Source of the DNA: Luteitalea sp. TBR-22
GTDB taxonomy: Bacteria > Acidobacteriota > Vicinamibacteria > Vicinamibacterales > Vicinamibacteraceae
DNA length: 64,000 bases
Direction of reading: 5' to 3'
Assembly (NCBI RefSeq): GCF_016865485.1
Contig: NZ_AP024452.1
Coordinates: 5,788,501-5,852,500, forward strand
Notes under the pieces: generated by a model
Database searches by the model: none
What the model was told of the DNA's origin: nothing
Seen by the model: only the letters and a program-made list of their open reading frames with translations
Part shown: positions 2,645 to 16,032 of the stretch, in pieces
How positions within the stretch are numbered: the first letter of the stretch is position 1
Layout: each line of letters opens with the position of its first letter
Translations under genes and position numbers: made by a program

Positions 2645-2989
2645 TCAGCCCGGCGGCCACCCCAGCCGTCGGCCGGCCAGCAGGTGCAGGTGGATGTGGA
2701 ACACCGTCTGGCCGGCGTCCGGATTGCAGTTGACCACCGTCCGGAAGCCGCCATCGGCGTAGCCGCGCTCGCGCGCGATCTGGGCGGCGCGGTACTGCAT
2801 CTGCCCGACCAGCACCGCATCCTCCGGCGTCAGGTCGTTCAGGGTGGCGATGTGCCGCCGCGGGATGACGAGGCAGTGCAGCGGCGCCTGCGGGTTGATG
2901 TCCTCGAACGCCACGAGGTCGGCGTCCTGGTAGATCACCTTCGCCGGAATCTCGCCGGCCGAGATGCGACAGAACAGGCAGCTGGACAT
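2645..2989 (-). CDS. HIT-family nucleotide hydrolase (HinT-like)
   Basis: A 114-residue histidine-triad protein. It starts [20 protein letters not shown] and holds the HIT motif HIHLHLLAG near the C-terminus; the middle His of the triad is the nucleophile. The CxxC near the N-terminus is common in this group. The family hydrolyses purine nucleoside phosphoramidates such as adenosine 5'-phosphoramidate in the cytoplasm. The length matches the HinT/PKCI type. It is convergent with prmC across an AT-armed repeat and divergent from ileS across a heptad element. The substrate in this organism cannot be read from sequence. Confidence 0.93.
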
Positions 2990-3003
2990 GGGGGGATTCT
3001 AGC

Positions 3004-3133
3004 CGGCAGTCGGCAGTCGGCGGTGGGCAGTCCCACTCGAGCACGCCGGCTGTCGCCCGCCGGGACTCCGCGAACCGCGTCGGAGGGTCGCGCGCAGGGC
3101 AGGACACGACTGACTGCCGACTGCCGACTGCCG
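3004..3133. repeat. Inverted heptad element CGGCAGT(4) ... ACTGCCG(3)
   Basis: The left arm (3004-3031) has four heptads CGGCAGT, CGGCAGT, CGGCGGT, GGGCAGT. The right arm (3113-3133) has three exact ACTGCCG heptads, the reverse complement of the left unit. Between them a hairpin (CTCCGCG from 3066, closing at 3085) is followed by GGAGGGTCGCGCG at 3082-3094. The same 13 bp follow the palindrome inside ileS. The right arm ends 2 bp before the ileS -10 hexamer. Confidence 0.85.
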
Positions 3134-3135
3134 GC

Positions 3136-3141
3136 TACAAT
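3136..3141 (+). promoter_or_regulatory. -10 hexamer TACAAT for ileS
   Basis: TACAAT lies 9 nt before the ileS ATG. A start about 7 nt downstream would leave a leader of only 2-3 nt, and no Shine-Dalgarno sequence exists. The -35 position falls inside the heptad arm. Confidence 0.6.
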
Positions 3142-3150
3142 GAACAGTTC

Positions 3151-5982
3151 ATGGCCGACTGGAAAAACTCCGTCAACCTGCCCCGTACCGACTTCCCGAT
3201 GAAGGCCAACCTGCAGGTCGCAGAACCTGCGGCGATTGCCCGCTGGGAGGCGATGGACCTGTACGGGCAGATTGCGCAGGCCCGCGCCGGGCGGCCGAAG
3301 TACGTCCTGCACGACGGCCCGCCGTACGCCAACGGACAGATCCACATCGGCCACGCCCTCAACAAGATCCTGAAGGACTTCGTCGTCAAGTCGAAGTCGA
3401 TGGCCGGCTTCGACGCGCCGTACGTGCCGGGTTGGGACTGCCACGGCCTGCCGATCGAGTTGCAGGTCGACAAGGAGCTCGGCGCGAAGAAGCGCGACAT
3501 GAGCCTGGCCGACATCCGACGCGCGTGCCGGGCGTATGCCGAGCGGCACGTCAAGGAGCAGTGCGCCGACTTCAGGCGCCTCGCCGTGTTCGGCGACTGG
3601 GACCACCCGTACCTGACGATGCAGTACGAGTACCAGGCGGCGATCGTCCGCGCCCTCGGCCGGTGCGTCGAGGAAGGCCTCGTCTACAAGGGCAAGAAGC
3701 CGGTCTACTGGTGCATCTCCGACCGCACGGCGCTGGCCGAGGCCGAGGTCGAGTACGAGCAGCACACGTCGCCGTCGATCTACGTCGAGTTCAAGCTCGA
3801 CGCGCGTGACGCCGACGCGCTCGCCGCGCGCGTGCCGGCGCTCGCCGGTCGCGACGTGTCGGTGCTGATCTGGACGACGACCCCATGGACCATCCCGTCG
3901 AACCTCGGGATCGCGTTCCAGCCCGGCTTCGACTACGCCGCGTACGACGTCGACGGCCGCCTGGTCGTCGTGGCCGAGGCGCTGGCCGAGGCGACGTTTG
4001 CCAAGGCCGGGCGCACGCCGGGAACGCCGGTCGCGCGGATGAAGGGCGAGGTCTTCGATCGCATCCGCTTCCGGCACCCGCTGTACGACCGCGAGTCGCT
4101 CGGCGTGCTGGCCGACTACGTGACGCTCGAGCAGGGCACGGGCGCGGTGCACACGGCGCCGGGCCATGGCGCCGACGACTTCAACACCGGGCAGCGCTAC
4201 GGCCTCGACACATACGCGCCGATCGGCCCCTCGGGCGAGTTCCTCGCCGACGTGGAGCTGTTCGCGGGCGTGAAGGTGTGGGACGCCAACCCGAAGGTGG
4301 TCGAGGCGCTGCGTGAACGCGGTGCGCTGTGGTTCACCGAGAAGTACGAGCACAGCTACCCGCACTGCTGGCGCTGCCACAAGCCGCTGATCTTCCTGGC
4401 GACGCCGCAGTGGTTCATCGAGATGGACCACGACGGGTACCGGGAGAAGGCGCTCGAGGCCATCAAGGGCGTCGAGTGGCTGCCGGCCTGGGGCGAGGAG
4501 CGCATCCACAACATGCTCGCCAACCGCCCCGACTGGTGCATCTCGCGCCAGCGCGCCTGGGGCGTGCCGATCCCCGCGGTCACGTGCACCACGTGCCGCG
4601 AGTCGGTGCTCACGACCGAGCTCACCGATCGCGCCGCGGCGGTGTTCCTCGAGCACGGCGCCGACGCGTGGTACGAGCGGCCCATCGAGGAGTTCCTGCC
4701 GGCTGGCTTGACGTGTGCGCACTGCGGCGGCACCGAGTTCGAGCGCGAGCGCGACATCCTCGACGTGTGGTTCGACTCGGGCACCAGCCACGAGGGCGTG
4801 CTCGCGGTGCGCCCCGAGCTGCAGTGGCCCGCCGACATGTACCTCGAGGGCAGCGACCAGTACCGCGGCTGGTTCCACAGCTCGCTGCTGGTCGCCCTCG
4901 GCACGCGCGGGCAGGCGCCCTATCGGTCAGTGATCACGCACGGCTTCGTCGTCGACGAAGAGGGCCGGAAGATGTCCAAGTCGCGGGGCAACAACGTCGT
5001 CCCGCAGCAGGTCATCGAGCAGAGCGGCGCCGAGGTGCTCCGGCTGTGGGTCGCGATGGTCGACTACACGGAGGAAGTGCGCCTCGGCAAGCAGATCCTG
5101 GCGCGCACCGTGGAGGCCTACCGCAAGATCCGCAACACGGTGCGGTACCTCGCGGCCAACATGTACGACTTCGATCCGGCCACCGACCTGGTGCCCCACG
5201 CGGAGATGCTCGAGGTCGACCGCTACGCGCTGGCGCGCTACGCCGACGCGGCGACGAAGATGCGGGCGGCGTACGAACGGTTCGACTTCCAGACGATCTT
5301 CCACGAGGTGAACCGGCTGACCGTGGTCGACCTGAGCGCCTTCTACTTCGACGTGTCCAAGGACCGGCTGTACACGTTCGGCGCCGCCTCGAAGGCGCGA
5401 CGCTCGGCGCAGACGGCGATGTACCTGATGGCCGACGGCCTGGCGCGGCTGCTCGCGCCGATCCTGCCGGTGACCGCCGACGAACTGTGGCGCGTGCTGC
5501 CCCCTGTCCACCGTAGCCTTGGCGAAGGTGGAGGGTCGCGCGAGGCCTCGGTGCACGTCGCGCTGTTCCCGGAGGGCGTCGACGCCTGGCGCGACGAGGC
5601 GCTGGTGGCGCGGTACGCGACCCGCCTCGAGTTGCGCGACGTGGTGAACGCGAAGCTCGAGGAGCAGCGGCAGGCCAAGGTGATCGGCACGTCGCTCGAG
5701 GCCGCCATCACCCTGTCGGGCACCGGCCGCTTCGCGGACGCGCTCGCCGGGCTCACGCCCGACGAGGTCGCCGCCTTCTGCATCGTCAGCGAGGCCACCG
5801 TGACGACGGCGCCGGCCGGCCAGGCGCCGGATTCGTTGGTGGTGTCGGTGTCGCGCGTCGGTGGCGAGAAGTGCCAGCGGTGCTGGCGCTACGTGCCGGC
5901 CGTCAGCACGACCGCCGACACGGAAGGCCTCTGCGGCCGGTGCGCCGAGGCGCTCGGCCTGGCCGGAGTCGTGCCCGCATGA
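3151..5982 (+). CDS. ileS: Isoleucyl-tRNA synthetase
   Basis: A 943-residue class I aminoacyl-tRNA synthetase charging tRNA-Ile with isoleucine and proofreading valine. HIGH is at residues 65-68 ([12 protein letters not shown]) and KMSKS at 607-611 ([13 protein letters not shown]). The CP1 editing domain lies between them. The C-terminus carries the zinc-binding CQRCWRY...CGRC segment of bacterial type 1 IleRS. After the anticodon-binding domain begins, about 14 residues including HRSLGEGGG are inserted where E. coli IleRS goes straight on; this matches a DNA palindrome described separately. The stop overlaps the lspA start as ATGA. The -10 sits next to the start codon, suggesting a nearly leaderless mRNA. 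Confidence 0.98.
5507..5542 (+). repeat. Palindromic element inserted in frame inside ileS
   Basis: A hairpin is formed by TCCACC (5507-5512) with GGTGGA (5527-5532) and an inner GCC-TT-GGC stem. It is followed by GGAGGGTCGCGCG (5530-5542), identical to 3082-3094. It encodes [15 protein letters not shown] in a loop between conserved IleRS blocks. Confidence 0.7.
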
Positions 5983-6557
5983 GCGACCGCACCCCGGCGG
6001 GGTCGGCGCGGGCCCAGGCAGGGCCGGCTGCCTCCGTCGGCTCCGCTCGGGGTACGCGCGCCCGGCCCGCCTGGGCGCGGCCCGAGATCTGGCTCACCGC
6101 GTTGCTCGTGGTCGCGGACCAGTTGACCAAGCTGCTGGTGCTGCAGCGCATCCCGCTGCACGCCACGGTCACGGTGATCCCCGGGGTGCTGAACCTCACG
6201 TACGTCCGCAACACCGGCGCGGCATTCGGCATGCTGAACGCGAGTGACTTCGCGTACAAGCCACTGATCGTCGCCGGGCTGGCGCTCGTCGCGTTGATTG
6301 GCATCCTCTGGTACGCGCAGAAGTTCGCAGGGGACGCCTGGCCGGCTCGCTACGGGTTCGTGCTGATCGTCGCCGGCGCCGTCGGCAACCTGATCGATCG
6401 CGTCACCCTCGGCTACGTGATCGATTTCGTCGACGTCTACGCGGGGGCATGGCATTTCTGGGCCTTCAACGTCGCCGACGCCGCCATCACGATCGGTGCC
6501 GTCCTGTTCGCCGCCGACACGCTCTTCTCGAGGCGCCATGTTCCCGAAGCTGCTTGA
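5979..6557 (+). CDS. lspA: Lipoprotein signal peptidase (signal peptidase II)
   Basis: A 192-residue inner-membrane aspartyl peptidase that cuts prolipoprotein signal peptides after Lgt modification. Family motifs are [12 protein letters not shown], then [19 protein letters not shown] and [11 protein letters not shown]. The two catalytic aspartates are in the NLIDR and NVAD blocks. Four membrane segments are visible. ATG 5979 overlaps the ileS TGA. The cytoplasmic N-terminal extension of about 35 Ala/Gly/Arg-rich residues before the first helix is longer than usual and may be dispensable. The gene overlaps lgt by 20 bp, so both enzymes of lipoprotein maturation come from one message. Many lipoprotein genes in the window are likely substrates. 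Confidence 0.96.
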
Positions 6558-15800: not shown

Positions 15801-16032
15801 GTTCGCCCCACCCCCTCTCCGTCCTCCCGCGGCGCCTGCGGACCCCTTCCGCGCGCCCTCGGCGCCTCATCTGTTTACGCCGGCGTAACATCGCGCTGGT
15901 AGCCTGTCGGGCGGTCTAGTTTCCGCCCGTTCATCGGGGCGTGTCGACGTACCGGCCAGCCCAGGGCCGGGAGTTCCTTCCGCAGGTCAGTCCGCCACCG
16001 CCCAGGGTCCGGCGGACACGTAGGAGAGATTC

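Follow-up and report, generated by a model that had tools for sequence, protein, structure and literature searches.

A 30-bp insert in ileS of Luteitalea sp. TBR-22 is probably a copy of a small REP-like mobile hairpin

The ileS gene of Luteitalea sp. TBR-22 (class Vicinamibacteria, Acidobacteriota; genome of 6,468,984 bp in one contig) carries an extra segment that is probably one copy of a small, non-autonomous, REP-like mobile hairpin of exactly 30 bp. The unit is dispersed, it has fixed ends and it has empty sites; no movement itself was seen, and mobility is read from these patterns. The gene lies in a window, the 64-kb stretch of DNA that was analysed, and its product matches the Pfam families tRNA-synt_1, Anticodon_1 (residues 690-853) and zf-FPG_IleRS as well as bacterial IleRS in the PDB (E 7.7e-269). 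The parts of the insert are listed in Table 1.

Table 1. Coordinates of ileS, of the inserted unit and of its parts in the window.
Feature	Position	Strand	Basis
ileS, isoleucyl-tRNA synthetase, 943 aa	3151..5982	+	Open reading frame; Pfam; PDB
Inserted 30-bp unit, residues 785-794, frame 0	5503..5532	+	30-bp difference from relatives
CCTG, 5' tag of the unit (family: C(T/C)TG)	5503..5506	+	CTTG or CCTG in 182 of 350 family matches
Outer arm TCCACC, pairs with GGTGGA at 5527-5532	5507..5512	+	Sequence; covariation of the pair in the family
GTA, left side of the conserved GnA/GnA mismatch, opposite GAA at 5524-5526	5513..5515	+	Family comparison
Inner stem GCC-TT-GGC	5516..5523	+	Sequence; covariation of the innermost pair (C-G/T-A) across the family
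Outer arm GGTGGA	5527..5532	+	Sequence; family comparison
GGGTCGCGCG, native ileS outside the repeat	5533..5542	+	Aligns with ileS of relatives; follows no other copy in the collected DNA

Judged from the alignment with related genes, the extra segment is an insertion. An IleRS match was obtained from 29 relatives, ranging from the same genus to the same order, and 27 of them (L068 included) were readable at the site; the pieces of L067 and L069 stop short of it. The ten residues are missing from all 27, four of which belong to the same genus. At the nucleotide level the difference from the relatives is 30 bp, takes in CCTG on the left side and falls between ...CTGCCC and GGGTCGCGCG..., and ten residues are likewise missing at this place from the closest IleRS of known structure. 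A sequence-only reading of the window had placed about 14 extra residues in the anticodon-binding domain and had proposed the alignment of relatives as a check. The insert is indeed in frame and within Anticodon_1, at 10 residues (30 bp) instead of 14, and it is specific to TBR-22 among the 27 readable relatives. The broader proposal, that a palindromic repeat had entered an essential gene in frame, agrees with its presence in TBR-22 and its absence from four other Luteitalea species. The outcome that had been set against it, an insert conserved in IleRS throughout the phylum, was sought in the 29 relatives and is absent from the 27 readable ones. Residues 785-794 would be a tolerated loop of the anticodon-binding domain, presumably without a function of their own.

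The two hairpin arms that had been described in the insert are present (Table 1), whereas the claim that GGGTCGCGCG is the tail of the repeat fails. These ten bases are native ileS and align with GGGCCGCGCGAGGCC in L044, and among 401 matches to the family pattern (up to four substitutions, duplicates included, in the collected DNA) GGGTCGCG follows the ileS copy only; the two comparisons together rule the tail out. The supposed kinship with a hairpin at 3082-3094 comes down to one shared 13-mer, GGAGGGTCGCGCG, which is present at four places in the genome with unrelated surroundings. Two exact copies of it in 64 kb exceed the expected 0.07, and none of 100 shuffles held two; a search for a common element behind the two copies in the window found none. 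In the same region upstream of ileS (window 3010-3140), inverted GGCAGTC-like heptamers flank about 90 bp, and heptamer runs similar to GGCAGTC adjoin several family copies of the TBR-22 genome.

Isolated from its surroundings, the 30-mer of ileS folds as a hairpin (-6.3 kcal/mol). Within a 66-nt stretch of ileS and under DNA parameters, the predicted fold differs from the hairpin and is no better than that of shuffled sequences (z 0.03). An Rfam search of positions 2900-6100 with E up to 1 returned no family at the insert and one sub-threshold match at 4007-4092.

The ileS copy belongs to a repeat family with the consensus C(T/C)TG-TCCnCC-GnA-GCnTTnGC-GnA-GGnGGA. A core pattern that leaves six positions free was derived from the ileS copy and its presumed relatives. 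It had 12 perfect matches in the TBR-22 genome, where 17 of 24 loci (L010-L033) were judged by eye, flanks included, to be real. For wider searches we used a 26-base pattern, TCCnCCGnAGCnTTnGCGnAGGnGGA, with the reversed pattern as the control. It matched eight times in TBR-22 and 62 times exactly in G001, a genome of the same genus (7,480,314 bp; 116 matches with up to one mismatch). Across the phylum there were 189 matches in 25 of 396 genomes and none to the reversed pattern. Besides G001, the genomes G210 and G299 are element-rich, with 22 and 28 copies respectively and a single Y1 gene in each. A scan of GTDB gave at least 116 stretches with family matches, and 106 of those listed carry at least 27 phylum-rank names (12 Patescibacteria lineages and 15 others by our own sorting). 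Judging by their titles, the listed stretches are mostly metagenome-assembled; records of Bradyrhizobium, Mesorhizobium, Geomonas, Niastella, Flaviaesturariibacter and Agaribacillus are not marked as such. IMG/VR contributed 72 further stretches with family matches, and a search of plasmid and phage collections with one variant of the 30-mer and the BLAST low-complexity filter on gave no match at E 0.01.

In the contexts that we examined the unit mostly stands alone, and partial copies in tandem also occur (GGCGGA, then AGCCTTGGCGAA). At four loci of the TBR-22 genome (L012, L013, L016 and L029) the unit is directly followed by a second, CGTAGCCGTCGCCCTTGGGCGACGGTC-like hairpin (GTGG in L029); this pairing of the unit with a GTAG-like REP recurs as a composite. 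Elsewhere in the window, positions 15991-16016 of the minus strand match the family with three substitutions and have TG before the match, which may be a degenerate copy or chance.

Allowing up to four substitutions, we obtained 350 matches against seven for the reversed control in 2.1 Mb of DNA that had partly been collected with the same pattern. These were thinned to 280 non-redundant copies and tested for covariation. Changes on both sides that keep a standard pair were found at positions 0/25 in 31 copies (3.4 expected from independence), at 3/22 in 86 (27.5 expected) and at 11/14 in 80 (24.5 expected). The middle of GnA showed no covariation beyond expectation (26 against 23.3), and the mismatch itself is conserved, with G.A kept in 264 and A.G in 272 of the 280 copies. 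Isolated 30-mers of the family fold as the drawn hairpin, and GTAG is absent from the 15 commonest tags before the stem. Tandem G.A pairs that enclose a free base form stable structures in DNA. Because a palindrome that is read as double strand by a dimer needs no GnA mismatch, the folded strand is probably the form that is read.

Paired filled and empty sites define the ends of the unit a second time. We sought one REP type (TTGCGAG...AGCAATCC) in the collected loci and found six filled REPs, all in Bradyrhizobium loci (L124, L143, L146, L159, L167 and L173), and 12 unfilled REPs with short loops. Four of the latter have the arms of the filled copies (L089, L143 and L167 of Bradyrhizobium and L112, a Rickettsiales MAG), and both forms are present in L143 and L167. 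Four filled and three unfilled REPs align with one clean 30-base gap. The unit there consists of C or T, TTG and 26 bases, and that in ileS of CCTG and 26 bases, so that its ends are identical in two settings. Comparison of filled and empty sites gave no evident target duplication at ileS or at the Bradyrhizobium REPs.

In these REPs, which are of CGTC type and whose arms we read as CGTC-1, the unit sits near the 3' end of the loop, 3' of the REP's own CGTC. Two further REP-like hairpins from Alphaproteobacteria (L100 and L113) also contain the unit. Flanks able to form a stem of at least 6 bp surround 19 of 113 non-redundant copies (L074-L218), compared with 2.2% on random re-pairing of the flanks (maximum 6.3% in 500). 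The loops of hairpins are therefore a favoured place, beyond chance, for a minority of the copies.

One alternative is that the unit is a new sequence type of the published GTAG or CGTC REP superfamilies and is moved by its cognate RAYT. Its size, imperfect palindrome, one-sided tetranucleotide tag and copies within genes fit such membership, as do the unusual loops noted in passages of PMC3733652 for the CGTC-1 REPs of Bradyrhizobium. A Y1_Tnp match is also commoner in element-bearing genomes (22 of 25) than in the others (236 of 371; Fisher p 0.015, uncorrected for relatedness). However, the tag is C(T/C)TG, the second stem pair is not A-T, the unit is an insert inside a CGTC-type REP instead of being that REP, and it does not lie beside Y1_Tnp genes: one of 31 Y1_Tnp loci, some of them overlapping, had a nearby copy, with two substitutions. 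We consider this alternative unlikely. The two Y1 transposases of the TBR-22 genome were rejected as carriers, as their loci hold no copy within three substitutions. One of these genes (L008) is bracketed by different, GTAG-tagged REPs, GTAGGGCGCGG...CCGCGCC (L008 1130-1260, beside the Y1_Tnp match at 6430954). One of the L008 REPs carries CTTGCCCTGAGCGAAGTCGAAGGGA at its apex; this segment is CTTG-tagged and is possibly a sister module.

The unit might instead be copied through RNA, or through repair or template switching in which the hairpin primes synthesis or is captured, with no dedicated transposase. No enzyme is linked to the unit, and G-T pairs occur at one stem position in 32 of the 280 copies, as RNA allows. 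The 62 exact copies of G001 likewise show no replication-strand bias (15+/19- on one arm against 11+/17- on the other, p 0.80), a result for one genome with the origin set at base 1 (a dnaA-like open reading frame) and the terminus at half its length, in which old copies may have been inverted. Nevertheless, fixed ends in two unrelated settings and one and the same unit across phyla argue for a specific recognition step, and we hold such a route to be improbable to about the same degree as membership in the published superfamilies.

Copies within protein genes extend beyond ileS. Open frames of at least 150 codons contain 125 of 259 distinct copies, a count that means little because the DNA is GC-rich. 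We therefore picked 30 open reading frames by hand from the 125 candidates and scanned them against Pfam. For 12 of the 30 proteins, domain matches enclose the unit or stand on either side of it: UvrD of Bradyrhizobium frederickii, PheT, AlaRS, TGT, LigA, ClpB, RarA/MgsA, a kinase-AAA protein, a TPR protein, a DUF255 protein, a phage portal protein and a phage-type primase. In the other 18 it lies neither within nor between domain matches, or the protein gave no domain match. Copies in genes occur in both orientations. The unit is open in all six frames, or in five of six with GTA on the left, and since 30 is divisible by three an insertion adds about ten residues without a stop. The expectation that the same peptides would recur in unrelated proteins was borne out in the translated family copies.

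We compared eight proteins, among them IleRS, with solved structures. In IleRS, TGT, AlaRS, LigA and UvrD the unit is in or at a stretch, mostly of more than ten residues, that is missing from the solved homologue. RarA has a net gain of about six residues, and ClpB (L185) and the PheT of a Patescibacteria genome (L155) are hardly or not at all longer than their solved homologues. The latter protein (L155:233-2584:-, from a MAG) also has an NlpC/P60 domain (343-412) between B3/4 and B5, which is either real or an assembly fault.

Within the TBR-22 genome we take the copies in ileS, pheT and a dnaE gene to be in genes, the latter two with Pfam matches that flank or span the unit; for the others, the codon-bias signal for a position in a gene resembles that of read-through frames. 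The pheT copy is in reverse orientation in the linker before B3/4, and 14 aligned relatives lack it. The gene differs from that of two congeners by a net 36 nt. A direct repeat of 7 nt flanks the unit in pheT and may be a target duplication. In a second DnaE-type polymerase gene, which we infer to be dnaE2, the linker is about 110 residues longer and holds about four degenerate copies, as counted by eye. In L024 (about 1400-1760) the linker of a DnaE-type gene is expanded by repeat-like DNA, and the copies there have longer apical loops, as though the apex had received a further insert.

These settings bear on the possibility that the family spreads by homologous recombination or gene conversion between unit-bearing repeats and not by transposition of its own. 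The filled Bradyrhizobium copies share REP arms and could have been copied whole, and the tandem partial copies could also have arisen in this way. Gene conversion needs homology outside the unit, so ileS and the other settings count against it: the same 30 bp stand in other REP types (L100, L113) and, in both orientations, in unrelated protein genes, and by eye the 50-base flanks of the ileS insert resemble those of no other copy in the genome. We rate spread by recombination as quite unlikely. That the insert is an old functional loop of IleRS, palindromic by chance, would suit a segment that is in frame and translatable, but this is refuted for the sampled relatives, all 27 of which lack it, and the same DNA family stands in unrelated genes and between genes, leaving the idea next to no credence.

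We accordingly return to the mobile hairpin as the probable identity of the ileS insert. The unit would move as a folded single strand, because, with its conserved mismatch, it is poorly palindromic as a double strand. It would be cut and joined by an enzyme acting in trans, for which a HuH/Y1 transposase of the TnpA-REP kind is our leading guess, held with somewhat less than even confidence. The E. coli TnpA acts on single-stranded REPs, requires GTAG and a bulge, and cuts at a CT beside the hairpin, as set out in parts of PMC8266576. The higher frequency of Y1_Tnp matches in element-bearing genomes speaks weakly for this guess; the 30 of 31 Y1_Tnp loci that have no copy nearby and the lack of strand bias in G001 speak against it. 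Single-strand transposition of the IS200/IS605 kind would predict a strand preference at replication. An insertion into a gene would then be tolerated and translated as about ten extra residues.

We put at an even chance the wider proposal that C(T/C)TG-tagged, GnA-mismatched 30-bp mobile hairpins from many phyla and viral contigs form an undescribed superfamily, with CTTGCCCTGAGCGAAGTCGAAGGGA as a sister module. Its members would be parasites that favour REP loops and, because their length is a multiple of three and nearly all their frames are open, enter essential genes in frame. If so, they would be among the smallest mobile DNA units known to us, with sharp ends in paired filled and empty sites, and the spread of REP-like hairpins would become directly testable. 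Unrelated core proteins would also be seen to acquire the same ten-residue peptides repeatedly in this way. For annotators, RSLGEGG, SAEALAKA, FAKATADK and RLRQGFGGQ would be repeat-borne peptides and not signs of homology.

The unit behaves like the Rickettsia palindromic elements and like REPs, and it fits no family that we checked. The sequence strings and peptides of the unit were found in no paper in the searched open literature text, a search that covered neither figures, supplements nor closed journals. Set beside a MITE, which has terminal inverted repeats and target-site duplications, the unit has arms of 6 bp, no evident duplication at the ileS and REP sites, and a 7-nt direct repeat at pheT. 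A Bradyrhizobium repeat described in parts of PMC5082802 is a different one.

GTAG REPs, known from REPtrons and REPINs, are likewise hairpins of 20-50 nt preceded by a tetranucleotide, and in E. coli TnpA is active on REPs only if they have a mismatch bulge (PMC8266576, in part); the unit has its conserved mismatch. In contrast to them, the unit has no GTAG tag and is near-identical across phyla. A GTAG REP is expected to have a cognate RAYT gene flanked by the same repeat, whereas a copy of the unit was near one of 31 Y1_Tnp loci and the L008 gene has other REPs around it. REPINs are REP doublets (PMC3116915, in part), and the unit is mostly single.

CGTC REPs such as CGTC-1 of Bradyrhizobium are also short hairpins with a one-sided tag, and in Bradyrhizobium they are physically joined to the unit. 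According to sections of PMC3733652 they have a CGTC (TGTC, CCTC) end, A-T as first and second pairs and a CCA tail. In the unit the first pair is mostly T-A and the second C-G, the stem begins with TCC and not AT, and there is no conserved CCA tail.

Passages of PMC3733652 place published REPs inside genes, among them those for tRNA synthetases and DnaE2, and describe Rickettsia palindromic elements that are likewise palindromic and in frame in protein genes that are probably still functional. The likeness to the Rickettsia elements drawn in the sequence-only reading therefore extends to behaviour and stops at sequence and tag: by their description in that source, RPE-4 and RPE-6 have CGTC at their end and RPE-1 exceeds the unit in length, whereas the unit is 30 bp long with a C(T/C)TG tag, has the GnA/GnA mismatch and occurs under at least 27 phylum-rank names among the listed matches.
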